The position numbers and the translations under genes are program-made. From positions 62,001 through 126,000 of the forward strand of contig JABJHA010000002.1 in the NCBI GenBank assembly GCA_018662005.1: DNA of 64,000 nt. Reading direction: 5' to 3'. The notes below the pieces were generated by a model. That model saw only the letters and a list, made by a program, of their open reading frames with translations, did no database searches and was not told the origin of the DNA. Shown one piece after another: positions 28,184 through 52,300 of the stretch; within the stretch, counting starts at the first letter, position 1, and the number at the start of each line of letters is the position of its first letter. The stretch comes from Rhodospirillaceae bacterium (GTDB lineage: Bacteria; Pseudomonadota; Alphaproteobacteria; Rhodospirillales; JABHCV01).

Positions 28184-29752
28184 ATGACGTCCGCATCCCC
28201 CGACCTTAGCCGCCGTCGTGGCGGCCGTTCCGCCAGACAGGCATTAAGAGCCCAACCCCTGACTCGCGACGCCCGCCCCGTCCATCCCGGCATGGAAAAC
28301 GGCAACTACCGGCCTTTAAGCGAACCCGATGTTCAAAAAATTCACCACGCCATCCTGCATGTGCTCGAAAACGTCGGCTTTTCAAAAGCCCCGCCTTCTT
28401 GTGTCGAGGCGATTACGGCGGTCGGTGGTGTTATGGGCGACGATGGCCGTTTAAGACTGCCCCCGGCGCTGGTCGAAGACACCATTGCGAATGCCAATCG
28501 GGATTTTCAGTTGTGCGGACAAAAGCCCGAATATGATATGTCGCCCCATGGCAAGCGCCTCTATTTTGGCACCGGCGGGGCCGCAATCAATATCGTCGAT
28601 GCCGAAACCGGAGACTTTCGCGAATCGACGATGAAGGATTTGTTCGACATCGCCAGGATGGTTGATGGCCTGGAGCATATTCACTATTGCCAGCGTCCGG
28701 TCGTGGTTCGTGATACGGAAACCAGTCGCGACCTTGATTTTAACACCCTTTACGCCTGCGTCAGCGGCACCTCAAAACATGTTGGCACCAGTTTCGTCAA
28801 TCCGGCCCATGTGACCGAGGCATTGGAAATGCTGCACATGATCGCCGGTGGCGAGAAACAATGGCGGGAGCGGCCCTTTGTCAGCCAATCCAACTGTTTC
28901 GTCGTCCCGCCCATGACTTTTGAGGCCAATGCCTGTGCAATCCTTGAGACGGCGGCGCGCGGTGGTATGCCGGTGCTGCTGTTATCAGCCGGACAAGCCG
29001 GGGCGACAGCACCTGCGGCACTGGCGGGTGCGGTTGTCCAGGCCACGGCCGAGACATTGATGGGGCTTGTCTATATCAACGCGGTTGTGCCCAAGGCCAA
29101 GTGCATGATCGGTATTTGGCCATTTGTTTCGGATTTGCGCACCGGTTCCATGTCCGGGGGTAGCGGCGAGCAGGCACTGCTGATGTCGGCGGCCGGGCAA
29201 ATGGGGCGGTTCTATGATTTGCCGACCTCTGTCGCATCGGCCATGACCGATTCAAAAATACCCGATGCCCAATCGGGTTCTGAAAAAGGTTACAACCACG
29301 CCCTGGTCGCCAATGCAGGAACCAACCTGATTCAGGAATCGGCAGGTATGCACGCATCCCTGCTGGCGTTCTGCTATGAAAGCCTGGTCATCGACAATGA
29401 CACCATCGGCGCCGTCCAGCGCACCATCCGTGGCATTGATGTTAATGATGAGACGCTGTCGCTGGATGTCATTTCAGAGACCTGCGAGCGCGGACCCGGC
29501 CACTATCTTGGACACAACCAGACCATTGAGCGTATGCAAAGCGACTATGTGTATCCGGTTGTCGGTGACCGCATGAGCCCCAACGAATGGACAGAGAACG
29601 GAAGCCAAAGCGTTGTTCAGCGGGCCCGCGTCGAAAGCCAAAACCTTCTCGACAATCACTGGCCCGATCATATCTCGACTGATCTGGATCAAGCTATCCG
29701 CGACAAATTCAATGTTAAACTGCCACTCAGTGAGCGGTTCAAATCTAAATAG
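28184..29752 (+). CDS. MttB-family (COG5598) methylamine methyltransferase-like protein, no pyrrolysine
   Basis: 522 residues, a trimethylamine-methyltransferase-like TIM barrel. Features: HAILHVLENVGFSKAPPSCVEA, KRLYFGTGGAAINIVDAETG near residue 125, a long alpha/beta barrel, and GPGHYLGHNQTIERMQSDYV near the end. Archaeal MttB needs an in-frame amber-encoded pyrrolysine; here the frame is open with no stop, so this is the non-Pyl branch, members of which demethylate quaternary amines such as glycine betaine. The usual corrinoid protein partner is not nearby. A DMGDH-like gene follows 9 bp later, so the substrate is plausibly betaine-like. Confidence 0.87.
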   Translation: MTSASPDLSRRRGGRSARQALRAQPLTRDARPVHPGMENGNYRPLSEPDVQKIHHAILHVLENVGFSKAPPSCVEAITAVGGVMGDDGRLRLPPALVEDTIANANRDFQLCGQKPEYDMSPHGKRLYFGTGGAAINIVDAETGDFRESTMKDLFDIARMVDGLEHIHYCQRPVVVRDTETSRDLDFNTLYACVSGTSKHVGTSFVNPAHVTEALEMLHMIAGGEKQWRERPFVSQSNCFVVPPMTFEANACAILETAARGGMPVLLLSAGQAGATAPAALAGAVVQATAETLMGLVYINAVVPKAKCMIGIWPFVSDLRTGSMSGGSGEQALLMSAAGQMGRFYDLPTSVASAMTDSKIPDAQSGSEKGYNHALVANAGTNLIQESAGMHASLLAFCYESLVIDNDTIGAVQRTIRGIDVNDETLSLDVISETCERGPGHYLGHNQTIERMQSDYVYPVVGDRMSPNEWTENGSQSVVQRARVESQNLLDNHWPDHISTDLDQAIRDKFNVKLPLSERFKSK

Positions 29753-32331: not shown

Positions 32332-32547
32332 TTACCGATCCCGGAACGTTATAACCAGCGCCGCAAGGCCCGCGATCAAGGCAATGGGCAGACCGGCGGG
32401 AACGGAAAAATACAGATACCAGTGATAGGTCTGAAGATAACTGCTGCCGGTGAGAAGCCCGATCAGGGCAATGATCAGTGGTGCCAGGGCAATAAAAACC
32501 CCGAACCCCGCGATCATCCACAACCGCTTCCGCCAGGGTGTCTTCAC
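32332..32547 (-). CDS. Small membrane protein, last gene of the giant-protein cluster
   Basis: I place the start at the GTG 32547-32545, which overlaps the cyclase stop as GTGA; an ATG at 32577 is also in frame. 71 residues: basic KTPWRKR, a helix WMIAGFGVFIALAPLIIALIG, a short polar turn SSYLQTYHWY, and a second helix LPIALIAGLAALVITF. No family recognised. Translational coupling to the cyclase suggests a partner role. Confidence 0.7.
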   Translation of the reverse strand: MKTPWRKRLWMIAGFGVFIALAPLIIALIGLLTGSSYLQTYHWYLYFSVPAGLPIALIAGLAALVITFRDR

Positions 32548-34238
32548 TTTGTCTCGAAAACCCAGACACCATCCCAATCTGCAGGTGGCGGAGTTTCTTT
32601 CAGGTGGGAAATGCGCTGCAAATAAACGACGGATGGGGGGTCATCCGGAGACAATTCCAGGCATTCCCTGAAAGCAACTTCAGCCGTCTCCCATTGCTGA
32701 TGACGATAGGCGTCGATACCGGAATGAAATCCATCCAGGGCTGGTGCTGGCAGGACCTGTTGTGCACCCCTCTCGGCCATCAGTTCAAAGACACGGGTTG
32801 GCAGGGCCTTGCCCTTGACCCGGATCAGATCAATTTCACGGGTCACAAAAAGATCCCCCGCTAGTTCGCATGTGCGCTCGGATATGAGCACCCGCGTCCC
32901 GTAAGCCTTGCTGGCCCCTTCAAGCCTCGATCCCAGATTGACCGGATCTCCCATAACCGTGAAGTTCATGGAGGCCTTTGAGCCGATGGTGCCGACAATC
33001 ATCTCACCTGTTGAAACCCCTATACGCAGGTCAATATCAAGACCGTCCGCGGCGGCGCCCAATTTTGTCTTAACGTCCGCGCGGAACGTTTCAAGGCGGC
33101 GCAATGCCTCAAGGGCGGCTTTGCAGGCAAGGGCCGCATGTTCATCGGCTCCTGTGAAGGGCGGACCCCAATAGGCCATGACCGCATCGCCCATGTATTT
33201 ATCCACAACCCCCTTGTTGTCAGAAATGGCTTCCGTCATCAGGGTGAAGAAATCATTGATCAACTTAACCAGATCATTAGGCCCCAGTTTTTCGGAAATC
33301 GAGGTAAAGCCCTTAAGGTCGATGAACAGGACGGTCATTTCCCGGTTTTCACCGCCGGGTTCGGCAAATTCCGGATTATCGAGAAGATTGGAAACAATGC
33401 GGGGATCCATGTACTTGCCAAAAGTATTCTGAATCCGTTCCTTTAAGCGCAAGCCAACCACCATGGTGTTAAAGGAACTCGTCAACTTACCAATTTCATC
33501 GTCCGTGATGACCGGCACTTCCGTATCAAGATCACCGGATTCAACGGCCTGTGTCCCGGCCACAAGATTGCGCACATTCCTGACCACGGCGCGGGTCACC
33601 AGGGTGGCAAAGCCCAGCCCAAACACCATCGCCAGACCTGTCAAAATAATGCTGATCTTTAACAGGAAGCGCTCATCCCTATCGGCCCTTTGAACGGCAG
33701 CGGTGTTAAGCTCTTCAACATGAAGGCGCAGTGCAGCAATCGCCTGGTCAATGGCATCCTGATTTTTATTTAAATCAGGAAGCAGCTGTTCAAACATTTC
33801 CCGATTGCCTTTTTCCCGCGCTTCGACCAAACGCCAGCCATGGACTTCAAATTTCCGGTATGCCTTGTCGATACCCGTAAGGCCATTTTCGAGGGACTTG
33901 AATTTGCGTTGTCCTTTTGAACCCTCTGCCAGCAGATACCGGGTTTCGATAAACTTGGCGGCAACCCGCTCACCCAACGCCCTGAAACGTTTGCCACCAC
34001 GGGACATCGCTGTTTTATTTTCTAGAACAAACAGCCGTTGCAAAACCACACCCTGTTCCAAAATATGAACATTGATTTCCGACATGGCGTCGCTGACCGG
34101 CAGATATTTTCCGGTGACCGCGTCCAGTTCATCGCTGATATTTGCCGTCAGCCTGATTGATAAAACGGCGACGGTGATCATCAACGCCAGAACAACGGCG
34201 GCGATGGAAAAAATCTTGTGGGCGATATTGAGATGCAT
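32544..34238 (-). CDS. Membrane class III adenylate/guanylate cyclase with HAMP and TPR
   Basis: 564 residues: a transmembrane helix at about 10-30, a periplasmic helical sensor region (about 30-190), a second helix near 195-215, then HAMP (ending IGKLTSSFNTMV). The cyclase domain (about 285-465) has metal Asp in VLFIDLKGFTSISE and VDKYMGDAVMAYWGPP, then VMGDPVNLGSRLEGASK. A C-terminal TPR-like part (about 495-540) follows. The active site looks complete. It makes a cyclic nucleotide, most likely cAMP. A CRP-like gene opens the same leftward gene string. Confidence 0.92.
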   Translation of the reverse strand: MHLNIAHKIFSIAAVVLALMITVAVLSIRLTANISDELDAVTGKYLPVSDAMSEINVHILEQGVVLQRLFVLENKTAMSRGGKRFRALGERVAAKFIETRYLLAEGSKGQRKFKSLENGLTGIDKAYRKFEVHGWRLVEAREKGNREMFEQLLPDLNKNQDAIDQAIAALRLHVEELNTAAVQRADRDERFLLKISIILTGLAMVFGLGFATLVTRAVVRNVRNLVAGTQAVESGDLDTEVPVITDDEIGKLTSSFNTMVVGLRLKERIQNTFGKYMDPRIVSNLLDNPEFAEPGGENREMTVLFIDLKGFTSISEKLGPNDLVKLINDFFTLMTEAISDNKGVVDKYMGDAVMAYWGPPFTGADEHAALACKAALEALRRLETFRADVKTKLGAAADGLDIDLRIGVSTGEMIVGTIGSKASMNFTVMGDPVNLGSRLEGASKAYGTRVLISERTCELAGDLFVTREIDLIRVKGKALPTRVFELMAERGAQQVLPAPALDGFHSGIDAYRHQQWETAEVAFRECLELSPDDPPSVVYLQRISHLKETPPPADWDGVWVFETK

Positions 34239-34579: not shown

Positions 34580-35089
34580 TCAACTGCCATCACCCCTGCA
34601 TTTCGCTGTCATCAGTTGAACCGAATGAGTCATCCGGTCAACATCGGTAAACACCAATGAACCAACGGTGATCTTTTCAAGAATGGAAACGGCATATTTT
34701 TCCATTTTAACGATGGTATTAACAACGGAAATACGAATATCGACGGGCCAGTTGCCATTGGCGAAGGCAATGCTATCGATGGAAATATCGAAGCCACCCC
34801 CTGAATCCACCTCGATGTCAGCATCCGGGTTCGTCAATTGAATACAGGCGAGAAAATCGTAGATTCGCATCAATGTTTCATGATCCGTTTCCTTAACGTA
34901 GACATGGTCATTGGCAACACCATAGTCTCGCAAATCACTGACCACATCTGACGTCTTGTTAAATTTTTCGACCGCCGCTTTCATGTTTTCAGAAACGCCC
35001 CAGTCATATTCATTCGCTGCTTCCGCCCCCCCAAAGGGAAGGGCGGAAGCTAAAACGAACAGGAACGCAAAACGAATCATCGTTCGCAT
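34580..35089 (-). CDS. Small secreted protein of unknown function
   Basis: 169 residues with a signal peptide cleaved near GGAEAANEYD (about residue 24). The mature part is mixed: helical NEYDWGVSENMKAAVEKFN, then a region with ADIEVDSGGGFDISIDSIAF that looks beta-rich, two Cys (one near IQLTN, one at the C-terminus, AKCRGDG). I do not recognise it. It is 12 bp downstream of the secretin gene, so it is a candidate pilotin or pore partner by position only. Confidence 0.78.
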   Translation of the reverse strand: MRTMIRFAFLFVLASALPFGGAEAANEYDWGVSENMKAAVEKFNKTSDVVSDLRDYGVANDHVYVKETDHETLMRIYDFLACIQLTNPDADIEVDSGGGFDISIDSIAFANGNWPVDIRISVVNTIVKMEKYAVSILEKITVGSLVFTDVDRMTHSVQLMTAKCRGDGS

Positions 35090-35101: not shown

Positions 35102-36934
35102 CTAGTAGTAGATGAACTGGATCGTGCGTTGGATCATCCGCTCGAGACGTCCGGGGTAATCCCACTTTTCCATTTTCACATCACCGGAACGGAATTCCTT
35201 GAAAAACTTTCCGTTCCTTAAGTGGTAGAGCACGGAATCAACGGTGGAAGCCGGGCGGAACCAGTCATCACGGTTTTGAAGTTCTTTCAGGTTTTCCTGC
35301 TTGGAACCTTTATCAGAAGTCACCGCCTTATCAATTTTATCGGTGCCATCTTCAAAAGTGTAACGAGCTTCCCGGGGGGTCAGCAGGATCAACACTGATT
35401 TCGTAAAGTCCAGAGTGGCTTCGTTGGAAAACAGGTACTGAACAATGGGAATATCCTGCAATAGCGGGACACCATCGCGCACGACTTCTGTTTCCTTTTC
35501 ACTCAAACCGCTAAGCACGAGGGTTTGGCCGAACTTCAGGGCGACATTGGCCGTGACCAGTGTTTTGCTTGTCTGGGCAAAGTTGGCGAACGAGGTGTTA
35601 CTAGATTGTCCCTCAACAAAGGCCCGTGCCGCTGAAACATTCAATTCGACAGCGTCGTTGTTCAGGAATTTTGGTGTTACATCCAGTTTAATACCAACCG
35701 GAATATCCGTAACCGAGCCTTCGCTGCCAGCGGCACCAGCCAGGGCAATGTGCCAAATGGCGCCTGAGAAAAATTCTGACTTCTTTCCGTCCAGTGAAAT
35801 CAGGGTAGGTCGTGCGAGGACTTCATTACGATCGTTGACATCGTTGAAAATATTCATCGAATATGTCGTCCTGATGAACGTCAACGTCGGGGTCCAGGCG
35901 ACAGAATTAACACGCGTCGTCGCGTCGTTATTCAGGGAAGTAGTTTTATTATAAATAACCGAACCGCCAAGTGTCGTCTGCAGCCCGTTTAATAAGTTTA
36001 CACCCTTGTTCGTTGCCACACGTTCTTCGGTTCGAATGATGACAACATCAACCAGGACCATTCTTTTCGTTGAAGCCTTACTGCTGCTCGAAGATCCGGA
36101 GCTATCGTTGCTGTCAACTTTCACCCCTTCAGTGGTAGCGGCTGAACCGAAAATATCGGATGTTGATTGCGCTAACTGAAGGTAGGACTTTTTCTCATGG
36201 AAACGTCCCCATTCGCCCATCCTGGTGCCCAGGTGAGTTTTGCGAAATGAGTCCTTGCCCTTGGTTTGGTGATTATAGATAGCCAGGTCCACATTGGCCT
36301 CACTCAACTTACCCGATGCGGCTTTTATCATGGCGCTGTCGTAGGTGATGTCCGGATCGTCTGGTTTTATCTGGGCCGCCTTGGTAATGGATTCCAATGC
36401 CGTCTTCAGGTCTTGTGCATGGTAAGACGCCGTCGCCAGTGCGCGCAGGAACTCCGGATTGTCCGGGGCGTAAAGAAGGGTGTAGGCAAAGGCGTCCTGG
36501 GCCTCGCGGTAGCGCTGTTCCTTAAACGTGATTTGTCCCAACTGGTAAGCAGCCCAGTAATTACTGGGATCGTATTGAAGGGCCAGCCCATAACCGACCT
36601 TAGCCATTTCGATCTGCGATGAATCACCGGCTTCGGAACGAAGATGGTAGGTTAGTGCATTGAGAAAATGCAGGTGGGCATCGGCCGGGTCAAATTTAAG
36701 GGCCTTGTTGAAAGCCTTGTTGGCGATCAGGAAATCTTTTTTATCAAGCGCCGTAAGCCCGGCCCTGATGAACGGATCGCTTAGTCGGTCTGATTTGACT
36801 TCCTTGACCATGGACGCCAGGTTTCCGGAACCCCCATCCCGGTAATCAGCAACGTCCGTTGCCGTCGTACTACAGGCGCTCAAAAAGCCTGTAGCGACAA
36901 CGACAGCGAGCTTAAATAAATGACGTATGGACAT
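35102..36934 (-). CDS. Lipoprotein with TPR repeats fused to a secretin domain
   Basis: 610 residues from the ATG at 36934, which follows a strong AAAGGGAGGGG ribosome site. The frame is open 90 bases further upstream. A lipobox GFLSAC follows the signal peptide. TPR units cover about 60-240 (AHLHFLNALTYHL, YWAAYQLGQITFKEQRYREAQDAF, FLRALATASYHAQDLKTALE). A Ser-rich linker precedes a GspD/PilQ-like secretin region (about 300-560): LARPTLISLDGKKSEFFSGA, VGIKLDVTPKFL, FGQTLVLSGLSEKETEVV, VLILLTPREA. Secretins form outer-membrane pores; no other type II or type IV pilus parts are nearby. A TPR-secretin fusion with a lipid anchor is uncommon. Confidence 0.88.
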   Translation of the reverse strand: MSIRHLFKLAVVVATGFLSACSTTATDVADYRDGGSGNLASMVKEVKSDRLSDPFIRAGLTALDKKDFLIANKAFNKALKFDPADAHLHFLNALTYHLRSEAGDSSQIEMAKVGYGLALQYDPSNYWAAYQLGQITFKEQRYREAQDAFAYTLLYAPDNPEFLRALATASYHAQDLKTALESITKAAQIKPDDPDITYDSAMIKAASGKLSEANVDLAIYNHQTKGKDSFRKTHLGTRMGEWGRFHEKKSYLQLAQSTSDIFGSAATTEGVKVDSNDSSGSSSSSKASTKRMVLVDVVIIRTEERVATNKGVNLLNGLQTTLGGSVIYNKTTSLNNDATTRVNSVAWTPTLTFIRTTYSMNIFNDVNDRNEVLARPTLISLDGKKSEFFSGAIWHIALAGAAGSEGSVTDIPVGIKLDVTPKFLNNDAVELNVSAARAFVEGQSSNTSFANFAQTSKTLVTANVALKFGQTLVLSGLSEKETEVVRDGVPLLQDIPIVQYLFSNEATLDFTKSVLILLTPREARYTFEDGTDKIDKAVTSDKGSKQENLKELQNRDDWFRPASTVDSVLYHLRNGKFFKEFRSGDVKMEKWDYPGRLERMIQRTIQFIYY

Positions 36935-37020: not shown

Positions 37021-38583
37021 TCAACGCCAGGAAATCACCTTGGCGTCGCCATGTTCAATCGACATCATCTGATTGGCCTGGACCGTGATCCATGGGCCCC
37101 ATTCCCTGCCCGGCGACTGGGTCCTGACCTGGGCCTGCTTGGCTTCACCCAGTCCAAAGTGAAGCGCGCCCCACTGGCCGCCGGCATGACCGCCGCCGAT
37201 GGTTACTTCCCGGCGCTGTACATGCTCACCCGTCTTCACTTCGACCCAGCTACCAACGGCCTTTGACCCCAGTCCAAGTTTCAGCCAGTTACCAATACCA
37301 GCGCTGACATTGCGCCAAATTTCAGCGGTGTGATTGCGATTGGAAACAACAAGGTCAAGTTTGCCATCGTCGTTCAAATCAACAAGTGAGCCACCCCGTC
37401 CTGTCTTGAAACTGAGCACCCCGGCTTCCTCGGCCCCTTCCTTGAAGGTGCCGTCGGCCCGCGCAATAAGCAGATTATTCGGGTCAGCATCAGCGGCGAA
37501 GTTGCCTGCCTCGACCTTTCCTTTGACGACCAGAAGGTCCGCCCGGCCATCGTTGTTTACGTCGCCGAATTCCGCATGCCAACCGGTCGACGCCCTGGTG
37601 TCACCACCGGCAAAAGGTTGCCCTGCAACGATGTTAAACGCCTTGGCCTTGTCTTGATAATGCGGCTTGGAAGCACCATCTGCGAGAACTTCAAAGCGAT
37701 TGTCGGTAATATTGGTCAGGTAGTATTCAGGATAGCCATCACCGGTGACATCGTGGGCGGCAATGCCCATGCCCCAAATTTTAACTTCCTGCCAGCCTTC
37801 CTCACGAGGGTAGAGCTTTGGCCCATTTTCGGAAAACTGGAAAAGCTGCTCTTCACCAAAGCGGTAAAATTCCATATCGTTGGAGACCCGCAGGTCCGCA
37901 ACGCCGTCCCGGTTCCAGTCGGAAAATAACATGGATAAAGCACAGTGGCCGGGCGTCAACGCTTCAAGGGGGGCGAACCCGTCGCCTTTTTTGTTGGGGC
38001 GATAAAGGTGATTATCATCGCAATCGCCGTAGCCCATTGTGATGGTGCCACGGTCCAGAAAATTGCCGACAACCATGGTTGGCCAGGTTTGTCCTGCTTC
38101 CCAGGTGGCGGAAAAGGCTGACGACCAGGCATTACCGCCATCAAAGTTCCAGTCTTCGTTGGCGCGCCTGAACGTGCAATCGCCCTGTCCGCGATAAAGA
38201 ATGTTCTCGCCGATACGCAGCAGCAGAAGATCAACGTGACCATCGCTATCAACATCCAGTGGATAAGCGCCGACGTTACGCTCAAGCTCAAGCCCGGAAG
38301 ATAGCTCAATGTCAAACTTCAACGCGCTGCCCTTTCGACTTAGATTTTTATACAGGCGCGACGTGCCGGCACCGCCAGTGAAAAACAGTTCCGGCTTTCC
38401 ATCGCCGGAGCAATCAAAGGCGGCAAGACCGCCACCGGTCATATAAGTCATTTCTTCGCCACGGTATTGAACGTCGATACCGGATGACTTTGTTTCGGCG
38501 GCAAAGTGTGGTGTTTCCGAAGCAGGCGCAGATGTAGCCTGCAGGGCCACGCCAAACGCGAAAATGGTGAGGATGCGTTTCAT
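37021..38583 (-). CDS. FG-GAP/VCBS propeller protein with ASPIC/UnbV domain
   Basis: 520 residues with signal peptide (cleavage near SAPASETPH). Repeated FG-GAP/VCBS motifs make a beta propeller: FDCSGDGKPELFFTGGAG, DVDSDGHVDLLLLRIGEN, DWNRDGVADLRVSND, DVTGDGYPEYYLTN, DVNNDGRADLLVVKG and DLNDDGKLDLVVSN, each with a D-x-D-x-D Ca-binding-like loop. The C-terminal ASPIC/UnbV-like part (about 430-520) has NWLKLGLGSKAVGSWVEVKT and LHFGLGEAKQA. It is a periplasmic or secreted scaffold; it starts directly after the P460/di-haem gene stop with no gap. Confidence 0.88.
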   Translation of the reverse strand: MKRILTIFAFGVALQATSAPASETPHFAAETKSSGIDVQYRGEEMTYMTGGGLAAFDCSGDGKPELFFTGGAGTSRLYKNLSRKGSALKFDIELSSGLELERNVGAYPLDVDSDGHVDLLLLRIGENILYRGQGDCTFRRANEDWNFDGGNAWSSAFSATWEAGQTWPTMVVGNFLDRGTITMGYGDCDDNHLYRPNKKGDGFAPLEALTPGHCALSMLFSDWNRDGVADLRVSNDMEFYRFGEEQLFQFSENGPKLYPREEGWQEVKIWGMGIAAHDVTGDGYPEYYLTNITDNRFEVLADGASKPHYQDKAKAFNIVAGQPFAGGDTRASTGWHAEFGDVNNDGRADLLVVKGKVEAGNFAADADPNNLLIARADGTFKEGAEEAGVLSFKTGRGGSLVDLNDDGKLDLVVSNRNHTAEIWRNVSAGIGNWLKLGLGSKAVGSWVEVKTGEHVQRREVTIGGGHAGGQWGALHFGLGEAKQAQVRTQSPGREWGPWITVQANQMMSIEHGDAKVISWR

Positions 38584-40317
38584 CTAGAGGGTTCCTAAGA
38601 AACGATGCAGGGAATAACGCTGGGAATTTTCCAGGTCCCGATAAGCCTGAGCCGCCCCGGCCGCTTCGCCGCCATGCCACAAGATGGCTTCGCGCACGTC
38701 CCTTGCCCGACCGTCGTGCAGCAGGAATTCCTTTTTTTTCATAAGCCAGCCAAGCCCCATCAGGGGGGCGGTGCGCCACTCGCCGGACCCGGCGGAGCCT
38801 TCGACAAATCCATCGGCCAAGCCGGGGCCGGTATCATGCAGCAACAAATCCGTATACATGCGTGAAGTGCCGCCATCATCCAAAGGCACTTCGGGTATAT
38901 GACAGGCAGCGCAACCGATTTGTCTGAACACCTGCTTGCCTTCCGGGTCGGCGCCGCGCGGCGGTGTGGGGACCAGGTCTAAAACACTGTCGGTAACAAG
39001 TTTTATGACGTTGTTTGAAATTTCACGGCCATCGTTCCGGGGCCGCTCGCCATGGGCGGCGCTATAACAAGCCTTTTGCCGCGGCGTGCAATCACCCCAG
39101 GCCGGCCCCATGATCTTTGAGGACATGCCCATGTCCATTCGGAATGCTTTTCCCGTTTGCACTTCCAGTGACCACTGGGCTGCCTTCCAGCCAAAACGGC
39201 CAAGGGCGGTGGAGCCATCAAATAATGTCACCCGGTTGATACGCCCTGAAATGCCATCGCCATTTTTATCTTCGGGGTCGGATAGGGCGATCAAGGTTTG
39301 CTCTGACACTTTTTCAAGATCGCCAAAACCGTGCAGTGCCGGTGACACCCGTCCCGCAATCAATGATTTTTCGCTTAAGGGTCCGTAGGCGGGGTCACGC
39401 AATTCAAATACCGGTTTGCGCAACATGGTCCCTGAAGGGTCGCGAATTTTTTCAAAACGCACTGCCGGCTGGCCTTCACCTTCAATGCCGGAAACGGCGC
39501 GTGGCTGAATTTGCCCGCCGTAAATGGGATCGCCGTATATACCGGCCCCTACTTTGAGCAGAAGGCTATCGCCCTTGATGGTGCCGTCTGCCCAAAACTC
39601 AAATTTCCCCCGGCTGCCATCAGGGTGACAGGCGTCGCACGAGCGCGCATTGAACAAGGGCCCCAGGCCATCGCCCGCCATTTCACCGTCGGCAAAGCGT
39701 TTTGCTGCGACCCACTCCTTGCCATAAAGGTCTTTGCCGGGGCTTCCGCCAGATGCAGGCGCGTTGGCGGTGAACACAGGTTTCGCTGCCAACAAGACCG
39801 GGTAGAAACGGGTAAAGACCCAATCCTGATCGGCCTCGTAATGGCAACCGGAACAACCCAGATTATCCATCGAGCCGATTTCCGGAACCTGCTCGCCGTA
39901 AGGCGGCCTGCCGAAGCTGAAGAAACCCCAGATTGAATCCGGATAGCGCTTGGAATCCTTAACCATCGCCGACAGGCCAATGTAGTCACCGGGGATCAGC
40001 GCGTGATTGTCCATATATTCTGCTTCGACCACCTTCAGGCGTTCCTGAACAATCATCGTGCCATTACGAAATGTGCCGGTTTTTTTCCAGTGAGCGAAAC
40101 TTTCAGGATCGATGTAGACGTACTTGAAACCCGGTTGGTAAGCCTCGCCACTGTTCATGCTGTCGGGTGAGGTTGGCGAGCCGATAAACACCCATTCGCG
40201 CCAGTTTTCGGGCAACATCAAATCGCCATCCGTACTGTAACGCGCTGGCGTCGCCGCTTCGGCACCGGAAGAAATGATAATGGCGAACAACGCCAGTATG
40301 GAAAGCAAGTGCTTCAT
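38584..40317 (-). CDS. Cytochrome P460-like domain fused to a di-haem COG3488 oxidoreductase
   Basis: 577 residues with signal peptide (cleavage near SSGAEAAT). Residues about 28-180 look like cytochrome P460: NWREWVFIGSPTSPDS, YIDPESFAHWKKTGTFRNGT, then CSGCH at 155-159 and DWVFTRFYPVL. The rest is a COG3488 'thiol oxidoreductase' region with CDACH at 227-231 and CAACH near residue 470, giving three c-type haem sites. The pairing suggests periplasmic electron transfer or oxidation. Its ATG overlaps the giant gene's stop by one base (TGATG), so the two are translationally coupled. The substrate is unknown. Confidence 0.87.
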   Translation of the reverse strand: MKHLLSILALFAIIISSGAEAATPARYSTDGDLMLPENWREWVFIGSPTSPDSMNSGEAYQPGFKYVYIDPESFAHWKKTGTFRNGTMIVQERLKVVEAEYMDNHALIPGDYIGLSAMVKDSKRYPDSIWGFFSFGRPPYGEQVPEIGSMDNLGCSGCHYEADQDWVFTRFYPVLLAAKPVFTANAPASGGSPGKDLYGKEWVAAKRFADGEMAGDGLGPLFNARSCDACHPDGSRGKFEFWADGTIKGDSLLLKVGAGIYGDPIYGGQIQPRAVSGIEGEGQPAVRFEKIRDPSGTMLRKPVFELRDPAYGPLSEKSLIAGRVSPALHGFGDLEKVSEQTLIALSDPEDKNGDGISGRINRVTLFDGSTALGRFGWKAAQWSLEVQTGKAFRMDMGMSSKIMGPAWGDCTPRQKACYSAAHGERPRNDGREISNNVIKLVTDSVLDLVPTPPRGADPEGKQVFRQIGCAACHIPEVPLDDGGTSRMYTDLLLHDTGPGLADGFVEGSAGSGEWRTAPLMGLGWLMKKKEFLLHDGRARDVREAILWHGGEAAGAAQAYRDLENSQRYSLHRFLGTL

Positions 40318-43300
40318 CAGTTTGTCAGATCCAGCATATCTACGGTGTAGTCAGCGCGGCTCAGCACCTCGAAGTTGGACGACAACGCATAATTGCCAAG
40401 ATGGTTGTATCGGCAATACTGCCCTTTCCAGGTCCAGCCGATTTTAGTCTTGTCGTTAACCATCGTCCGGCAGCTATAAGCCGTTGCTGGCCATGGTTTT
40501 TGCCAGAATCCCGTCGGTATAGCGTTCCCAGGCAGGTGGCCACCGACATTCTTTACCCAGACTACACCCACCCCTTCCATCAGGATGTCATAGACCGGTT
40601 CTTTGATCATCGTTCCCTGGAAAGGCTCGCTGTAAACACATTTGCGATTGACGACGACACCAGGCACCCAGGCTTGATGAAGCCCGTTATAGCCGCGGCA
40701 AAGATACCACTTGGGTTCCGGCGCGGGGACAGCGTTCCTCGCCAGTTTTGCCCGCATGATTTCGATGTTGTAATCGTCGGAGCGAATTCGCGCTCTCATG
40801 CTTGCATTGTTGCGCGCTTCCCAGGCTTCGTGTCTTCGACATTGCTCATTAATGATCTCTATTTCCACATCCGCACGGGCTATATCCGCAAACCTGCCCC
40901 AGCCATGCGCATCGCGTTTGGAACGTTCCCAATAGGCGTGCTCGGAATTCTGGGATGGAGTACAGCCATTTTTAACGTTCCGTGCAGCCCAGTTTGCATC
41001 GTTCTTCAATTTGGCAAGCTGGGTGCGTTCTTCCGCATGTTTTTTAAGCGTATAGGCGGGCATTCTTTCGGCAACCGTATAGGCTGCGTCAAATTTGGAA
41101 TGAAGGGGTATGGATTCTCTAAAACTACTCCCTTTCCAATAGGTGCCGTAGCTATACGCCGTTGTTGGCGCGAAGACGTTCAAGGACCAGTTTTCGCAGG
41201 ACCCTTGCGCGACCGGCGCACCTTTCACCCAGTATTCCTGCTCGGTGCAGAAACCGGTTTGGGCGTTCTTGATTTTCCAGCCGCCGGGGACCTGAATGGC
41301 ACCCCACCACTGGTAATCCAGTTGGGTGCAAACGGCCTCGGACAAATCGACACCTGTTTTATAATCATGAGGCTGCAGGCATCTGCCGGTACGGGTATTG
41401 ATGAACTTGACCCGGCCTTCAATATCGACCAGATAATCGTAAAGCGCGACATTACCGCCTCGGCAATTTACCAGATGAACCGGGTCGTCGGCTTTGCTCG
41501 CATCGCTGAAGCACAAGCCACTGGTATCGGACCTAAATGCGACTTTGGCCTTATGGTACTTCGGCGAGGTGCTGTCGGCGACGCGGAAGACCTGATTGGC
41601 GGAGCCGACACACGGCGCCCATTCGGCCTTGGCCTTTTCTGGCACGCCGTTTGAATCATAGAAGTGCAGGCATTGGTCATTGGCCCGGTTGGCAAGCTGC
41701 ATCCAGCCGTCACCGTGTTTCTGGACTTTCCAGTAATATTGCGTCGCATTGTTGCAACCGCCGACTTTAAGTTTGTTGTCGCCTTTGAAGACCGGGAACG
41801 GGAACGAGAAGTTGTCGAACTTCTTTTGCACCGTTGACCATTTACCGTCCATGGAGATGCAGTTGCTGCCTTGAGTCAGATAGACAAACCCGCGGGCTTC
41901 CTTGACGCTATCGGCGCCGAAAGCTGGTGTAGTCGACCATTTCTGATTTTCTGCATCTTTGTTATTACAAGGCAATTGGACGATAAAGCCGTTCTGGTTT
42001 GCCAGACAAAGCCCTGTGTGGCCGACTTCGATATACTCGTTCTTCAGTTTTAGGCTGACCGGATCATGGTCCAGGCCGCTCATTTTAATGGCTATCTGCT
42101 CTTTAACGTAGGCGGCGTTATAAGCTTTGTAGCGCGCCGTTATGGCCTTGCCCTGCTTGTTGTACCCCTTGAAGTCCTTGGAATACTTCGCCAGTTCCTG
42201 CTTTTGCGACGCTTGCTTGGCATCAATTTTACGTCCGATTACGGCTTGCACATGCCTTTTAAAGCCATGAGGCAAATGTTTCATGACCTTCTCGAACAAA
42301 TGATCCAGGGCATACAGGCCCATCAGCCCAAGCTGTTCGACGTCGTATCCTAAATCCTTGATCTTGAACGAAAACTGCTCATGGATGTTGAGCCCGAACA
42401 GATCGGCGTCCAAAGTCAGATCGACCGGTTCATCCTTGGTTATAACACCACGAAGGTCGCCCTTGAACTCGGCTTTTTTGATGTCGATATCGGCGGCCTT
42501 GCCAAGGGCATCAGCAAATTTATCCAGCGCCCGTTCCATGATGCTGTCCAGATCATCCAGCCCTTCGATGGCTTTTTCGGCAATATACAAGACACCTTTG
42601 GCCGTATCGCGCTCTACGATGTAAAAGGCGACACGGGGGTCCAGATCGAGCGGGAAGTGGGCAACCAGGGTTTCCGCTAGGCGCAATGCTTCATCGGCGA
42701 CATCCCTGAGCCCTTCTTCAAAGCGCGCGGCAATGCCCCATCTCGCCTTGCAGAAGGCTTTTTTCCAACCGTGGCAATGATGATACTTGTGCCAGTCGTG
42801 GTCGATGCTGCCGTTCAGGCTGTTGACCCGGTTTTCCGCACTGTGAAGGCCGCGTTCGGCGGCGGCCCGTTCACGACGAACCTTGGCCCGTTCTTCGTTG
42901 ATTTTGGTGGTCAGGTGATCAACTTTTTTCTGGGCCTTTTTAACGGCTTTCAGCCCCTTCTTGAGCCCCTTGCCCATTTCATTAAAGGCTTCATTCATGG
43001 CCTTTTTGGCAGGGCCTTCGATGAAGGCCGGAATATCCAGGGTGAATTTGCCATCGATAAAGAAGTCGGCCTTCTTCATGTCGATCTTGGCCTTGTCCAG
43101 ATCGAGGCCGGTCAGATCAAGGGTGAAATCGGCGGTAATATCCTTGCTGAAGCTACCTTTGGCATGGATTTTAATTTCCGATGAATCGAAGACGACGTCG
43201 AATTTTTCCTTAATGCCGATAATGTCGATTTTGGAATTGATCTTAAGCAGCGGGAACTTCGTCGGGCTGGCTTCCATCAGGAACTTGTTTTCTTCCAGGT

Positions 43301-46300
43301 CGATGGGGCCCATTTTAAAGTTATCGATACTGCCTTGAGCGTAAAGGCCCTTGGTCGGTGAAACCGATAGCTTCATTTCGCCCAATTCATGACCCAGCCA
43401 GTTGAGACTGCCATGCATACCGAAACCTTCCGATGTCAGGCCAAGGGATGCGTCCTGTGCGCCCGGCGAGACAAAGGCGAACAGAACCCCCTTGGTTCCC
43501 TTCGTCGCTGGATAGCCATTTCGTGCCGGTGAAGCCTTGATTCCCTTAAACGTCGGCATAATACCTTGTGGCAGGTCGAAGTGGATTTTCTTAGCCAACA
43601 TGTTAAGAGCCACTTCCTCGATGAAATCCATGGGGATTTCAGTGGCCGTCGCCTTGAAAGCAACAGCTTCAGGAACCAGCGCTTCGGAAATAACCACGTC
43701 ACCTGCCATGGTGAAGGTGTCGTTGGCGAGGGTCGTAGAGCCGCCGAAACCAAGCTTAAGGCCACCATCCTCGGTTCCGAGTTCGACTGTCACGTTGCCA
43801 AGCGAGAAACCGGGGATACCGAAGGGTTTGTGCCACTTGCCTTTCATCTGACCCAGAACTTCAAGGCCGAAACCGTCATCCAGAACCTGGACTTGAACCT
43901 TGGCGTCGAACAGAAGCTTGTCGCCTTTGATCGTCGTGTTAACGCCAACCTGAAGCCCCAAATCGAATTCATCCGGGTCGACGGTAATGAAGAAATCAAG
44001 ATCGGCACTTTTCGACATTTTCATGAAGCCGGGCAAGGAGTTCGACCCGCCCTCGCTCAATTTACCCAGCAACGTTACTTTTGGCGTATCGCTGCCCCCG
44101 AAGATGCCCGTGACCTCGCCCATGACAAGGACTTCAGTTTTAACACCGATGCCCTTGACGGTTTTGCCCATTGGGCCTGCGTGATCAGGATGGAAACCGG
44201 CAACGAAGGCGACGCCCGGCTTGATGTTGATGCTCTCGCTGGGATTGGAATAGATGTCCTTCAGCGCGTCCTTGCCGACCTTTGAAAGTTCGGAATATGG
44301 TTTGTTCAAACCTTGTTCACTGAGCATAACCGCCGCGAACGGGAACTTGATGTGTTTTAAGGGCGTGTTTTTCAGCGGTGGGATGATTTCGGTGATCGCG
44401 AAGTCTTTTTGCGTCAGCGCCAGATTCCAGCCAGAACCATGGAAGGCGAACAGGTCCGTGGCGCGCCCGGCGATCATGCTGTCGGCCTCGATACCGTGTT
44501 CGGATACGATAAGTTTTGTCAGCGTGAACTTGTTGGCTTCCGGAATTTTATTGATCTCAGGAATCTCACCCAGCTTGATCGGCCCGTCCATTTCAAAGTA
44601 GGCATCGGTGATCAAGCCGTTGGTTTCGTGGACATCGACCTTGACGTCCATTTCCGAAGATGATCCGACCTTGGTTTTTGCGTTCACCGTAATATCGAAT
44701 GTAGAAGTGCCGGACTTTTTCTTCTCGTCAATGTCGATGCTAAGACTCGTTAGATCGAGCCAGTGAATGCCGACCGGATGATTCCAGGGATGGATTGTTT
44801 TGCCGGTAAACTTCCATTCCTTGTCGCTGCTGCCCTGAGGGCTGTCGTATTCGACATCCATGAAGAAGGCGAGGCTATCGCTTTTAACTTTCACGGTGGT
44901 ATCGCCCGATATGCCAACATCAATACCGCGCGCACCACTGGGTGTCTTGCCCTTGATGCGCAGATGGCCGTTTTGGAAGGTCAGGAATTTCGAGACCTCG
45001 GGAATATGAGGTGTCGGGATGGCGATTTTCAGGTCCAAATTATCCAGAATGTCGTTCTTGATATCCGCCGCGCTGTGATTCTTGATGAAGGTTTTGGGGC
45101 TGAACTTTCCATTTAGCGGTAGCGTCAGTTTGCTAACCCCAATCTTCTTCAACAGAGTCGCCACTTCGCCTGTCGGGTGGACCTCTAAATGTCCAAACAC
45201 GTTCAAGCCGGGCTTCAGGGTGACCGGTTCCTTGGTTCCGCGCATTTTCCAGGCAATGTCGGGGCCAAGGTCGGCAAGCTTCACCTGCCTAGTTGTCTTT
45301 GTCGGGCTGTAAACAAGGTTGAGGGCCTTGAACGTCACATCCTTGAGCGGTGAATTGCCAGCATCAGGAATAAATGTCGCCGGAGAGAAATCATCAATTT
45401 CCATACTGAACTGGTATTTCGACGAGCCGCTGGGTTTGATCAGATCAATGTCCGCACTAATTCCCTTTAGCGTCAGGCCCAAACGCCAGAAGCTGTTACG
45501 AACCTGAATCCAGTCAAGTTCCACATCATCAAGTCCCGGAAGATTGGCGTCACCGACAATTTCGGCAGCCGTCATTTTGGTGCTGATATTAAGGAGTTTG
45601 TCACCCGCAGCCGTGTGGTTGTAAGACACGTCAATCGGCTTCTTGAAGTGGGATTGGGCCGCAACTGACCAGCCCCAGCCGGCCTTTGCCTTGACCATGT
45701 TGAAGTCCATCTCGGACAATGTGAAGGTTTCCATCATCTTGATGGTGACCTTGGTGCCGGGCACGGTTTTGCCGCTGATCGTCACCTCGACAGGTTTTCC
45801 GGCTGCTTCTTTCACTTCCACTTTGTAATCGAAAGCCACAGTCTTGGAATGAACGCTGACATCCAGTACGCCAATCACGTCAACGACGACAGCCTCCTTT
45901 ACGCCTTTGATCGAAAGCTTTGAATGCTTAATGGTGGCGACTTTCGACACGCCCGGAAGGTTGATCTTCGGCAGCGGGATATTGAGGTCCAGATTGGCGA
46001 GAATCTTGCTCTTGAGCGTTGCGCTACCGCCCTTGACCTTACCAAAGACGGATGGTGACAAAGCGCCCTTAAGCGGCAGGGAACTCTTGGAAATACCAAC
46101 ATGTTTCAGCAACTTTCCGACCTTGGACGTTGACGCAATAACCATTTGCCCAAAAACATTGACGCCCGGCTTAAAGGCGAACTTTTCGGCCGTGAACTTG
46201 ATCTGATCGCCAATACTGCCCGGCACGTCCGTCGGGTTCAGGTTACTTGCGGCCCCAGTTTTCGACGCCCAGACAAAGACCATGTGTTCAAATTTGGCGT

Positions 46301-49300
46301 CATCCAGGGGTGTGCCCTTAACCGCCGGAATGAACGAACCGATATCGAAATCCTTGACGATATTGGTCGCCATATATTTTTTTCCGCCATGGCGGAAGGC
46401 CGTGATGACGGTGTCCATGCCCTTGATCTTCAGTTGAGCTTCGACATAACCGGGAAGGATATCAAGCTCGTCAATTTCAACATCGCTTAAGCCCGGAACG
46501 CTGGTGCCGCCGGGCATCAGGTCGGCCAGGGTAATCTTCGAGGTAATCTTGACGCTTTCGCTCTTCTCCGTCTTGGTGACGAGGACATCCATCTCTTTAT
46601 TATTAATCTTGGTCTTCGCGTCCACATGCGAGGCCCATTTACCACTGGTGCGGGTTGCCGTCAGGTTCATGGAATCCAGTTCCATGGGCTCGAACAGGCT
46701 GAGCGTCACCTTCTTGGTGGAATCCGCCGTTATCGTCAGGTTGGTGCCGCCACCGACGGTCTTGTCGGCCTCGATATCGAAAGCGAACTCGATGTCCTTG
46801 GAGCCGACCTTAACGTCGATATCGCCTGTCACAGCGACGAGAATATCGCGGGTCTCACCCTTCTTTTCGCCCTTGATGGCGAAATGGGCCTTCTTGAAGG
46901 ACACCGGAGCGCCGGACATGCTGGGCAGCGGGACAGGCGCTGAAATATCCAGCGCATCAATGATGGCATTCTTCACCCCGCCCGATGGTGCACCTTTGTT
47001 GAACACCTCTGGGCTTAACGTGCCAGTCAGCGGCAAGCTTGCGGATTTGATATTTAACTTGCCTAGCAGGCTGGCGATTTTGGTTCCGGATTTGATATCC
47101 AGTGAACCCTTCAGGTTAAGGCCCGGATTTAGATCAATCTTTGCAGACGACTTGGTTATCACTGTCCCTAGGTCATTAGGCAAGTCAGAGGCATTAACCC
47201 CCTTCTCGCCATCGCCCTTGGGCACCCAAACGAAAGCCATGTTGTCAAACGTCGCATCATCCAGCGCCGTACCGGATACCTGCGGGATAAAACTGCCAAC
47301 GCTAAAGGCACCAAAGGTGACGCCAATATGCAACTTGTTACCGGGGCCACGTTTAAAGGCCGTTACCTGGGTATCAAGCTTTTTAATCTTGCCGGTGAAT
47401 TCGGCAAAGCCGGTGTAGAAATCGATCTCGTCAAATTCCACATCGCTAAGCCCCGGAATACTGGAACCGCTTGGCAGAAGATCAGCCAGGGTGATCTTGG
47501 TGGTGATTTTGACGGTGTCTTTACCATCCGGAGTCTTCGTTGCGACCACTTCAAGGGGTTTGTTGTTTATCTTCGATGTGGCGTCAACGAAGGAATCCCA
47601 CTTGCCATCCTTGCGGCTCGCCGTCAGCTTCATGGCGTCCAGTTCAAGGGGCTCGAAGAACGGCAGCGTTACCTTGGATGTTGAATCAGCCTTGATCGTG
47701 ACATCGGTGCCACCGCCCTGGGTTTTGTCGGCTTCAATATCAAAAGCAAAATCGATTTCCTTGGATCCCAGGCTGACATCAATAGCGCCGGTTACGGCGA
47801 CAAGGATATCGCGCACGTCACCCTTCTTTTCGCCCTTGATGGCGAAGTGGGCATTCTTGAATTTGACCGGTGCGCCGGACATGCTGGGCAACGGCACCGG
47901 TGCCGAAATATTCAGTGCGTCGAGGATGGCGTTTTTAACTCCGCCTGAAGGCGTCCCCTTGGCGAACACCTGCGGGCTCAGGGAGCCCGTCAATGGCAGG
48001 CTGTTAGATTTAATACCGGCCTTGCTCATCAAACTGGCGACTTTGGTGCCGGACTTGATGACCAGAGACCCCTTCAGGTTAAGGCCGGGGTTCAGATCAA
48101 TCTTTGCAGACGACTTGGTGATCACCGTGCCCAGATCGTTAGGTAAGTCAGAGGCATTAACCCCCTTCTCGCCATCACCCTTGGGCACCCAGACGAATGC
48201 CATGTCATCAAAGGTGGCGTCATCAATGGCCGATCCAGCCACGGCTGGTACAAAACTGCCAACCGTAAATGCGCCAAAAGTAACACCGATGTGCAGCTTG
48301 TTACCGGGACCGCGTTTAAACGCCGTGACCTGTGTATCCAGGCCTTTCAGCTTGCCCGTAAACTCGCCGTATCCTTCATAAAAATCGATCTCGTCAAATT
48401 CCACATCGCTCAAGCCCGGAATACTGGTGCCACTGGGCAATAAATCGGCGAGCGTGATCTTGGTGGTGATTTTGACGATTTCACCGGGATTGGGTTTGCG
48501 GGTAACAACGACTTCAAGGGGCTTGTTGTTAAGCTTCGATTTAGCATCAACATAAGAAGACCACTTGCCGTCCTTGCGCGTCGCCGTCAGCTTCATGGCG
48601 TCCAGCTCCAGGGGCTGGAAGAACGGCAGCGTCACCTTGGAGGTGGAATCTGCGGTGATCGTAACGTCCGTACCGCCGCCTTGCGTTTTATCGGCTTCAA
48701 CATCAAAGGCGAAGTCGATTTCCTTGGTCCCCAATTTGACATCCATTGCGCCGGTAACGGCGACCTTGATATCGCGGGTTCCATCCTTGTTCTCACCCTT
48801 GATGGCAAAGTGAGCGTTCTTGAAGGTGACCGGCGCACCGGCCATGCTGGGCAGCGGCAGCGGTGCCGAAATATTCAATGCGTCGAGGATGGCGTTTTTA
48901 ACGCCGCCTGATGGCGTCCCCTTAGCAAACACTTGCGGGCTTAAGGTGCCGGTTAAGGGCAGACTGTTTGATTTAATGCCAACCTTGCTCATCAGGCTGG
49001 CGATCTTGGTGCCGGACTTGATGACCAGAGAGCCCTTCAGGTTAAGACCGGGGTTCAGGTCAATATTGGCCGATGACTTGCTGATCACCGTGCCCAGATC
49101 ATTTGGCAGTTCCGACGCCTTGACCGCTTTCTCGCCATCACCCTTTGGCACCCAGACAAACGCCATGGCGTCAAACGTCGCATCATCCAAGGCTGATCCG
49201 GCAACTGCAGGAACAAAACTAGCGACGGTGAAATCCCCAAAAGTCACACCAATATGAAGCTTGTTACCGGGGCCGCGCTTGAAGGCGGTGACCTGGGTAT

Positions 49301-52300
49301 CGAGATTTTTAATCTTGCCGGTGAATTCGCCGAAGCCTGTGTAGAAATCGACCTCGTCAAATTCCACATCACTGAGGCCCGGAATGGACGAGCCGCTGGG
49401 TAGCAGATCGGCCAGGGTGATCTTGGTGGTGATTTTGACGGTGTACTTGCCATCCGCCGTTTTCGTCGCGACGACTTCGAGGGGCTTGTTGTTGAGCTTC
49501 GATGTGGCGTCGACGAATGAATCCCACTTGCCACCCTTGCGGCTCGCCGTCAGCTTCATGGCGTCCAGTTCAAGGGGCTGGAAAAACGGCAGCGTCACCT
49601 TGGATGTGGAATCAGCGGTAATCGTCACGTCCGTGCCGCCGCCTTGGGTTTTGTCGGCCTCGATATCAAAGGCGAATTCGATTTCCTTGGCGCCCAGCTT
49701 GACGTCGATATCACCCGTTACAGCAACCTGGATATCGCGGGTGCCGCCCTTGTTCTGACCCTTGATAGCGAAATGGGCGTTCTTGAAGGTTACCGGCGCG
49801 CCTGACATTTTCGGTAAGGGCACCGGGGCTGAAATATTCAAGGCATCCAAAATCGCATTTTTAACGCCGCCCGATGGTGTGCCCTTGGCAAACACCTGAA
49901 GGCTTAGCGATCCTGTCAGGGGGAGGCTATCGGATTGGATGCCAGCCTTGCTCAACAGGCTGGCAACCTTTGTGCCTGACTTGATAACCAGAGATCCCTT
50001 CAGGTTAAGGCCCGGATTCAAATCAATCTTTGCAGACGATTTTGCAATAACGGTGCCCAGATCATTTGGAAGCTCAGTCGCATTGATCCCCTTCTCGCCG
50101 TCACCCTTGGGCACCCAGACAAACGCCATGGCATCAAAGGTGGCGTCATCAAGGGCCGAACCAGCCACGGCTGGCACAAAACTGCCGACGCTGAAATCTC
50201 CAAAAGTCACACCAATATGGAGCTTGTTACCGGGGCCACGCTTGAAGGCGGTGACCTGGGTGTCGAGATTTTTGATCTTGCCGGTGAACTCGCCGAACCC
50301 GGTATAGAAATCGACCTCGTCAAATTCCACATCACTGAGACCCGGAATACTTGAGCCGCTTGGCAACAGATCGGCCAGGGTGATCTTGGTTGTGATCTTG
50401 ACCGTGTCCTTGCCATCCGCCGTTTTCGTCGCGACGACTTCCAGGTCCTTGTTGTTAAGCTTTGATTTGGCATCAACCCGCGACGCCCACTTGTTGTCGC
50501 TACGCGTCGCCGTCAGGCTCATACCATCCAGTTCAAGGGGCTCGAAGAACGGCAGCGTAACTTTTGATGTGGAGTCCGCCGTAATCGTCAAATCGGTTTT
50601 CGTCCCCGCTGTTTTGGCGGCGGCGACGTCGAAGGTGAATTCGATTTCCTTTGAGGCCAGCTTGACATCAATGTCGCCATTTACCGCGACATCGACTTCG
50701 CGGGTGCTACCGGTTTGTTTGGTGGAAACCGAGAAGTGGGCATTCTTGAAAGTCAAAGCGTCAGGCGCGCCGGGAATTTTCGGCACCGGCAAAGGCGCGG
50801 TGATGTTCAAGTTGTTAAGAATCGCTTCCTTGATCTGGGCGCTTTCCTGCCCTTTGGCGAACAGGGAAGGATTGATCGAGCCACTCAGGGGCAAGGTATG
50901 ATCAGAGACACCCAAAGATGACAACAGAGAGCCCACCTGACCCGAAGAACTGGCAGCGAAGGTTCCAAACAGGTTAAGGCCTTCCTTGAAGGCGTGGGTC
51001 GGGCCACCGGCCGTCAGGACCTTGTCCACATCGGCGGGAATGTTTGTCGGGGCTGTGGCGCTGGCCTCACCCTTGGGAACCCAGATGAAGGCCATATTGC
51101 TGAAGACGCCTGAATCCAGTGGCGTGCCAGCCAACGGCGGAATGAAAGTTGCCAGGGTGAAGGCGTCGGGCATCACCGCGATTTGCATCTTGCCGCTGCT
51201 TGATGTGCGGTAGAAGGCGATGTTGGCCTCCTCATCGCGCACCTTGATGCGGGTTTCGGCCCAATCCTTGGTAATTTCCAGCTTCTCAAGCTCGATCGCG
51301 CTTAAGCCCGGCGCGTTGAAACCGCCGCCAACAAAATCGGCCAGCGTCAATTTTGTATCGATAATAATATCGTAGGCAGCCCCGCCACCCGCACCGCCGG
51401 TCGAAAGCGCCGCCGTTAGGTCGAGCTCCTTTGAATTCAGCTCGGCGGTGGCTGCAAGACTGACGTCCCAGGCATTATCCTTCTTCGCCGCATTCAGGCT
51501 CAACGTTTTGGTTTCAAAATTGGTGAAGCCGGGGAACGAGAGAGAATCCTTGGTAATTGCGGCCAGTGAAATGGCCGATTGCTGGCCGGTTTTTTCAAGC
51601 AGGAAACTGCCGTCAAACGTCGCCTGCTTACCGGCGACGGAAACGCTCAGTCCATCCTTGACCTGAAATCGAAAATTGCGCGTACCGTTCGTGTTGGAAC
51701 CATCAAAATGCAGGAAACCCTTATCGGCAAATTTGACGAAATTCGGCATACCGGGTGGCTTAAGCGCCGGCAGAGGCATGGTCAGATCGAGATTTTCGAG
51801 CACCGCATTCTTGATCTGCTCACCACCACCGGAGCGGAAGACGGCCGGATCAATGGAGCCACGGATCGGCAATTTCAGACTGGACATACCAACCTGGGTC
51901 AACAGCGAGCCAATGTCGCTGGAGGAAGGGAAGTCCACAGAACCGAACAGGTTGAGCCCGGCCTTGAAGTTCAAGCTGGTGCCGGCGGCTTTCAGTTTAT
52001 CAGCGACGGATTTCTCTAGCCCAGAAACCTGGACACCTGTTTTGGCCTCACCCTGGGGAACCCAGATCACCGCCATGCTTTCAAATTTGGCGCTTTCCAG
52101 TGGCGTTTCGCTTAAGGTCGGGATGAAATTGGCAAGGGTGAAGGTATCGGGCAACACCGCAATCTGCGCCTTGGCATTTGGCGCTGTACGGTAATAGACG
52201 ATAGCGGCTTCGGCTTCCCTGATCTTGATGCGGGCATCGGCGAGGCTTTCGCGGACCACCAGATTTTGCAGTTTTACATCGGAAAAGCCCGGCATGTTCA

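Follow-up and report, generated by a model that had tools for sequence, protein, structure and literature searches.

A family of lipoproteins joining a TPR domain to a secretin core may form a simple export system

Secretins are usually presented as outer rings in large envelope-spanning machines powered by ATP. The window analyzed here, the whole 64,000-nucleotide stretch of DNA from a Rhodospirillaceae bacterium, encodes a predicted lipoprotein in which a secretin core follows a tetratricopeptide repeat (TPR) domain, and this raises the question of what kind of secretin it is and what might pass through it. An initial annotation had placed a TPR-secretin fusion at the correct coordinates but missed that the gene lies on the minus strand, where the frame is open; the plus strand of the same interval is rich in stops (Table 1). 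A ribosome-binding site, GGGAGGGG, is located just 5′ of the ATG, and the mechanically called open reading frame (ORF) is longer, beginning at a TTG at 37024 and encoding 640 aa.

Table 1. Features of the TPR-secretin gene and its neighborhood (positions within the window)
Feature	Position	Strand	Basis or remark
TPR-secretin gene, 610-aa predicted lipoprotein	35102..36934	-	ATG at 36934; translation, Pfam, ribosome-binding site
Lipobox LSAC, residues 18-21, predicted lipidated Cys21	36872..36883	-	Also found in 49/62 members by pattern
TPR superhelix, residues about 54-256, proposed fused pilotin	36167..36775	-	Pfam, AlphaFold2, structural matches
Low-confidence linker, residues about 257-290, Ser-rich at about 277-288	36065..36166	-	Translation, AlphaFold2
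Secretin core, residues about 291-521 (PF00263 at 367-521)	35372..36064	-	Pfam, NCBIfam profiles, alignment
Secretin signature VPLLQDIPIVQYLF, residues 489-502	35429..35470	-	Canonical; looser pattern in 50/62 members
C-terminal tail, residues 522-610, family-specific; FFKEFRSGD and terminal FIYY	35105..35371	-	Alignment
Giant partner, 4384 aa, Sec-type signal, about 321-residue repeats	40317..53471	-	Homologues beside other TPR-secretins
RicinB_lectin_2 stretch of giant protein	41511..41732	-	Pfam
DM9 stretch, end of giant protein	40392..40709	-	Pfam
Cytochrome P460 and di-haem oxidoreductase (DHOR) fusion, three CxxCH, Sec-type signal	38584..40317	-	Same position in L122
FG-GAP / UnbV_ASPIC exported protein, directly upstream of TPR-secretin	37021..38583	-	Homologues beside secretin in L038, L122
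169-aa exported protein directly downstream of TPR-secretin	34580..35089	-	Adjoins secretin in 5/62 loci
HAMP and adenylate/guanylate cyclase, downstream end of gene run	32544..34238	-	Also at L114, L122

The protein begins with a signal carrying the lipobox, which bears out the lipid anchor claimed at the outset. Pfam TPR models match between residues 57 and 217, and the AlphaFold2 model, whose mean pLDDT is 52, has 10-residue blocks at pLDDT 72 to 90 from residue 51 to residue 240. The Ser-rich linker described initially was recovered as a Ser-rich run within a disordered linker that extends up to about residue 290. The identification of a secretin core also held, as Pfam Secretin (PF00263) matches with an E value of 6e-26 and 91.5 bits, far above its cut-off of 27.5, and the signature is canonical. 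From residue 292 onward, the AlphaFold2 monomer has a secretin-like strand order modeled at low confidence, and the Foldseek matches to this half are local matches to secretins, with overall TM-scores of 0.15 to 0.20 to the query. The domain limits first given, residues 60 to 240 for the TPR and 300 to 560 for the secretin, were about right, except that the core ends near residue 521 and is followed by a tail of ∼90 residues, for which we propose the role of a built-in S-domain.

Judged by sequence, the TPR-secretin is a member of a distinct family. Membership was defined as the combination of TPR, secretin core, and tail, matched at E ≤ 1e-50 by a profile (A1) built from a 17-member alignment, and the window's protein itself matches at this level. 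The alignment has invariant residues in the TPR, the core, and the tail, and PF00263 matches all 17 aligned proteins. At the A1 threshold, members were detected in 53 of 317 genomes of the window's order and in 12 of 398 genomes drawn from its phylum, and none was detected in three other searched genomes of the window's genus. Named carriers include draft genomes of Rhodospirillales, Woeseiaceae, a betaproteobacterium, a gammaproteobacterium, and Syntrophobacterales. With a profile of the core, the sole member present from outside A1 scored 282.5 bits, compared to 48 to 81 bits for 15 other secretins. Among the 62 member ORFs, a simple pattern found the lipobox within the first 135 residues in 49, a loose secretin signature was present in 50 and the tail motif in 47, and the last residue was Tyr or Phe in 34; some of the ORFs without a given pattern are cut at contig ends. 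A profile search for this architecture, which the initial annotation had suggested as a check, thus showed the same TPR-secretin order recurring across the family. A chance ORF or a one-off fusion is ruled out by this recurrence. No TPR-secretin fusion family of this kind was found in open PMC papers, searched by titles and the beginnings of abstracts in a collection with few subscription papers or preprints. The plasmid collection held one distant TPR-secretin only (27% over 40%), on an Asticcacaulis plasmid (L097, 11092-12741), where it is annotated as a tetratricopeptide repeat protein within a run of hypothetical genes.

We then compared the family with known secretins. N0, N1, and Secretin_N were absent from the 15 Pfam families listed for the TPR-secretin (E ≤ 0.1) and from the 25 of 27 families listed for the 17 aligned members. 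The GspD profile (NCBIfam TIGR02517) scored 61.3 bits against a cut-off of 351.35 and matched through positions 338-588 of 600, the PilQ profile (TIGR02515) scored 69.8 bits against 284.35 through positions 237-425 of 428, and the SctC profile (TIGR02516) scored 48.4 bits against 238.45; matches to the GspD, PilQ, MshL, and SctC profiles are confined to the secretin part and lie far under the cut-offs. The claim that the TPR stands in place of N0/N1 therefore survives, with the GspD and PilQ profiles matching by their C-terminal part alone, and clear N0/N1 domains on closer alignment, the finding named beforehand as fatal to it, did not appear in the Pfam or NCBIfam profiles. As far as these profiles can tell, there are no N-domains with which the protein could dock to an inner-membrane platform. 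With GspD of type II secretion, which provides the nearest solved structures by sequence, the TPR-secretin has in common the C-terminal secretin domain, but the N-terminal half of the GspD profile is unmatched and no gsp genes are nearby. With PilQ and its pilotins PilF/PilW/Tgl in the type IVa pilus it has in common a secretin core and the likeness to a TPR pilotin, but it is fused, no N-domains were found, and its neighbors include no pilus genes. HxcQ-type self-piloting lipoprotein secretins likewise bear a lipid anchor on the secretin itself. However, HxcQ keeps its N-domains and a type II engine, whereas the TPR-secretin has the TPR instead of N-domains and some of its carriers have no match to the platform protein T2SSF. 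A classical T2SS, T4P, Tad, or T3SS secretin was rejected on the profile scores together with the platform counts given below.

The combination of lipobox and TPR makes the protein a TPR lipoprotein, as are the pilotins PilF and PilW. The PilW profile (TIGR02521) matches with an E value of 2.7e-11 and 43.5 bits, and PilW is among the structural matches of the TPR (2vq2; Z 17.4, rmsd 3.9, 190 aligned). Because the profile score is below the NCBIfam cut-off of 154, because MamA (Z 19.1) and designed TPRs rank level with or above PilW, and because the PEP_TPR_lipo profile matches too, the likeness to PilF/PilW indicated by profiles and a predicted model is real but not specific. In a published account (PMC10499894), TPR lipoproteins are described as the pilotins for two classes of secretin: PilF serves PilQ, and TadD serves RcpA. 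TadD is packed around RcpA, and the four C-terminal residues of this secretin bind in a groove of TadD. The RcpA/CpaC and TadD pair of the Tad pilus resembles the TPR-secretin in combining a secretin core with a TPR lipoprotein, but it is encoded by two genes, with an N-domain in RcpA itself and a Tad engine, whereas the TPR-secretin is encoded by one gene, which lies away from the tad-like locus. The initial suggestion of self-piloting remains a well-supported proposal, in view of the lipobox in most members and the TPR lipoproteins that this account describes as pilotins.

We next asked whether the carriers encode the inner-membrane machinery on which secretins usually depend. Searched for at E ≤ 0.001, T2SSF (PF00482), the platform protein of type II secretion and of type IV and Tad pili, went undetected in 27 of the 62 carriers, of which 17 come from one genus and three from another and three are drafts that are 57 to 67% complete; the same search gave matches in 13 of 14 control genomes. 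Of the 45 carriers with completeness of 90% or more and contamination of 5% or less, 22 had no T2SSF match. In 24 of the 27, TPR-secretins were the only PF00263 matches, the remaining three (G019, G657, and G677) having one other secretin each, and G661, a single contig with 100% completeness, encodes two TPR-secretins and no detected T2SSF. T2SSE scored above cut-off in 13 of the 27. All of these matches except that of G579 cover about positions 100-273 of the profile in frames of 322 to 384 aa, and we tentatively read them as conjugation-type ATPases; the G579 match extends over most of the domain and looks, from its sequence, like a secretion ATPase.

T2SSF is present in the other 35 carriers, the window's genome included, so that borrowing of a platform is possible there. 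The only other secretin of the window's genome (C16:46151), its only T2SSE above cut-off, and both of its T2SSF lie together at C16:46-52 kb; we take this cluster for a Tad locus that has a secretin of its own. The TPR-secretin gene is thus found neither within this tad-like locus nor beside a T2SS platform, in agreement with the original statement that it lies outside any classical secretion cluster. It might still supply an accessory outer-membrane ring that the cell's Tad (or T2SS/T4P) machine could use in place of its usual secretin, and the T2SSE ATPase and two T2SSF at one locus, together with the 35 carriers that have T2SSF, lend this some weight. We nevertheless consider it distinctly unlikely, because that locus already holds a secretin, because 27 carriers have no T2SSF match and 24 of these no other secretin, and because no platform-docking N-domain was found.

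To see what accompanies the secretin, we compared 62 loci, taken from 48 of the 62 carrier genomes and four named records. The same-strand neighbors fall into two large groups: group 1, in which giant beta-rich proteins and tectonin/ricin-type proteins are joined through common domains, and group 2, made up of pentapeptide-repeat proteins. A same-strand partner was found within three genes at 45 loci (44 by script, plus L053, where tblastn revealed a giant homologue in a frame missed by the gene caller, which had picked a shadow frame). The remaining 17 loci, some at contig ends, have no such partner, and the one on the opposite strand at L127 was not counted. Partner families account for 56 of 114 genes next to a TPR-secretin compared to 4 of the 371 genes located farther than three genes from it, a count that is partly circular because the partner groups were defined from neighbors. 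A ricin-type domain was detected in the window's giant, L114 (barely above cut-off), L042, and L045, and not in L105 or L043; the partner in L124 has four ricin stretches, that in L036 has a C-type lectin, and tectonin is present in L035, L037, L046, and L111. Within the order, tectonin was detected in 27 of 53 genomes with a TPR-secretin versus 8 of 264 without (Fisher 1e-17 by genome) and, counted by genus, in 8 of 23 versus 4 of 92 (p 2e-4); close relatives are non-independent, and the test is not entirely clear of the same circularity. The tectonin lies within 8 kb of the TPR-secretin in 24 of the 35 tectonin genomes. By a crude test, signal-like N-termini were seen in 37 of 42 full-length group 1 members, compared to 84 of 257 control genes, and in 7 of 13 proteins of group 2. 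Gene proximity to the TPR-secretin can also reflect common regulation or assembly instead of export. We note that the pentapeptide-repeat partners (L101, L104, L123, and others) have a conserved C-x-x-C-D-L motif after the signal and that a TAXI/NMT1-like exported protein is encoded directly upstream of the member in L116, L121, and L100.

In the window, the gene run consists of the giant, the DHOR/P460 protein, the FG-GAP/UnbV protein, the TPR-secretin, the 169-aa protein, an 82-aa protein, and the cyclase, and from the giant to the TPR-secretin the genes are separated by short gaps or overlap. The first four follow in the same order in L122. The giant, which we propose as cargo, has a repeat period derived from motif spacing and alignment; Tandem Repeats Finder detected no DNA-level repeat in its gene, and self-comparison of the protein gave no repeat rows. 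Two of its repeats were modeled as mainly beta with a mean pLDDT of 57.9, and this model had no PDB match at E ≤ 0.001 and a best VIA-align Z of 6.1. The DM9 repeat at its end is best known from animal lectins. Relatives of sensor kinases, GGDEF proteins, and cyclases occur near members in L040, L114, and L122, and this recurrence suggests that production may be under second-messenger control.

We further investigated whether the class of partner tracks the secretin with a tree of 59 of the 62 members, built by a quick method and with 17 of 56 inner branches unsupported; L054 and L055, two halves of one gene, and the short L106 were left out. With automatic labels in three classes and two mixed-partner loci excluded, partner class changed 4 times among 42 loci, whereas 200 shuffles averaged 19.0 changes and never gave fewer than 14, and with labels assigned by hand there were 5 changes among 44 loci. 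Partner class thus follows the TPR-secretin tree, and the tectonin pairing extends from the window's order to L035 in the Betaproteobacteria and L037 in the Gammaproteobacteria. Since TPR domains bind peptides and partner class tracks this tree, the TPR of a self-piloting secretin might, as the initial annotation had it, select the cargo and not act as a pilotin only. We hold this to be very unlikely: the tree was built from TPR and core together and does not resolve which part follows the partner, and a pilotin is no less natural a reading of this domain.

The conserved pairing along the tree and the lectin-type domains of several partners would also fit a surface anchor, a ring that holds or displays the lectin partners after another route, their own or an unknown exporter, has carried them across. 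This seems unlikely to us, as the gated pore core is conserved although anchoring needs no pore. A TPR joined to an outer-membrane channel is, moreover, the plan of BcsC and PgaA. The TPR here lies ahead of an outer-membrane channel and gives weak matches to the BcsC and PgaA profiles, and with sugar-binding neighbors this could point to an exporter or importer of something else, such as polysaccharide or small molecules, with the lectin partners assisting in the handling of sugars. Among the recurring neighbor groups of the secretin, however, there is no glycosyltransferase or synthase family, and we regard such a role as highly improbable.

We prefer export of the partners because it best joins the pore, its company, and the missing engine. 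The TPR-secretin would then be a stand-alone, self-piloting outer-membrane secretin with a PilF/TadD-like pilotin as its TPR and Sec-delivered partners as its substrates, a proposal that we rate at about even; the two functional steps within it, the pilotin role and the export itself, we see as evenly poised between right and wrong. The lipoprotein would be carried to the outer membrane by Lol, and its TPR domain would do the work of a pilotin such as PilF or TadD from within the secretin chain. The aromatic C-terminus, which is conserved, may bind in a TPR groove, as the end of RcpA does in TadD (PMC10499894), and the subunits would assemble into a ring. Sec would take the partner proteins over the inner membrane, and they would exit via the ring without an ATP-driven pseudopilus, perhaps drawn out by folding or ligand binding outside. 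In the window, the most likely passenger would be the giant, possibly joined by the DHOR/P460 and FG-GAP proteins.

By analogy, the nearest working likeness is type XI secretion (Slam/DUF560), in which a TPR precedes the outer-membrane channel and the cargo gene is adjacent (PMC8406197), though the barrel is a different one, DUF560 there and a predicted secretin ring here. TPR_Slam matched weakly in 2 of the 17 aligned members (25 of 27 Pfam families listed), and the TPR-secretin itself had no Pfam match to the DUF560 barrel at E ≤ 0.1. The family may represent a simple, undescribed export system. Tentatively, and with more doubt than confidence, this could be a one-channel secretion system in which a self-piloting TPR-secretin, without a pseudopilus, platform, or ATPase of its own, exports neighboring Sec-delivered lectins and repeat giants, cargo class and channel co-evolving at least in Alpha-, Beta-, and Gammaproteobacteria. 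A family that seems to provide the only secretins of genomes without a detectable platform makes it directly testable whether a secretin can gate and export without an engine, and whether a pilotin can form part of the channel itself; if the proposal is true, numerous large, lectin-like proteins at the surface of environmental bacteria, for which no export route is known, would gain one.

Two further loci of the window deserve mention. On the minus strand, positions 55535-60649 encode a 1704-aa hybrid sensor kinase with three SBP_bac_3 solute-binding domains, PAS domains, a receiver, and an Hpt domain, and its neighbors are a response regulator, a CRP-like regulator, and a GGDEF response regulator. 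On the plus strand, an Rfam PYLIS_3 match at 29243-29342 falls within a gene resembling those for trimethylamine methyltransferases (28184-29752); no stop interrupts the frame of this gene, which is probably a non-pyrrolysine relative.
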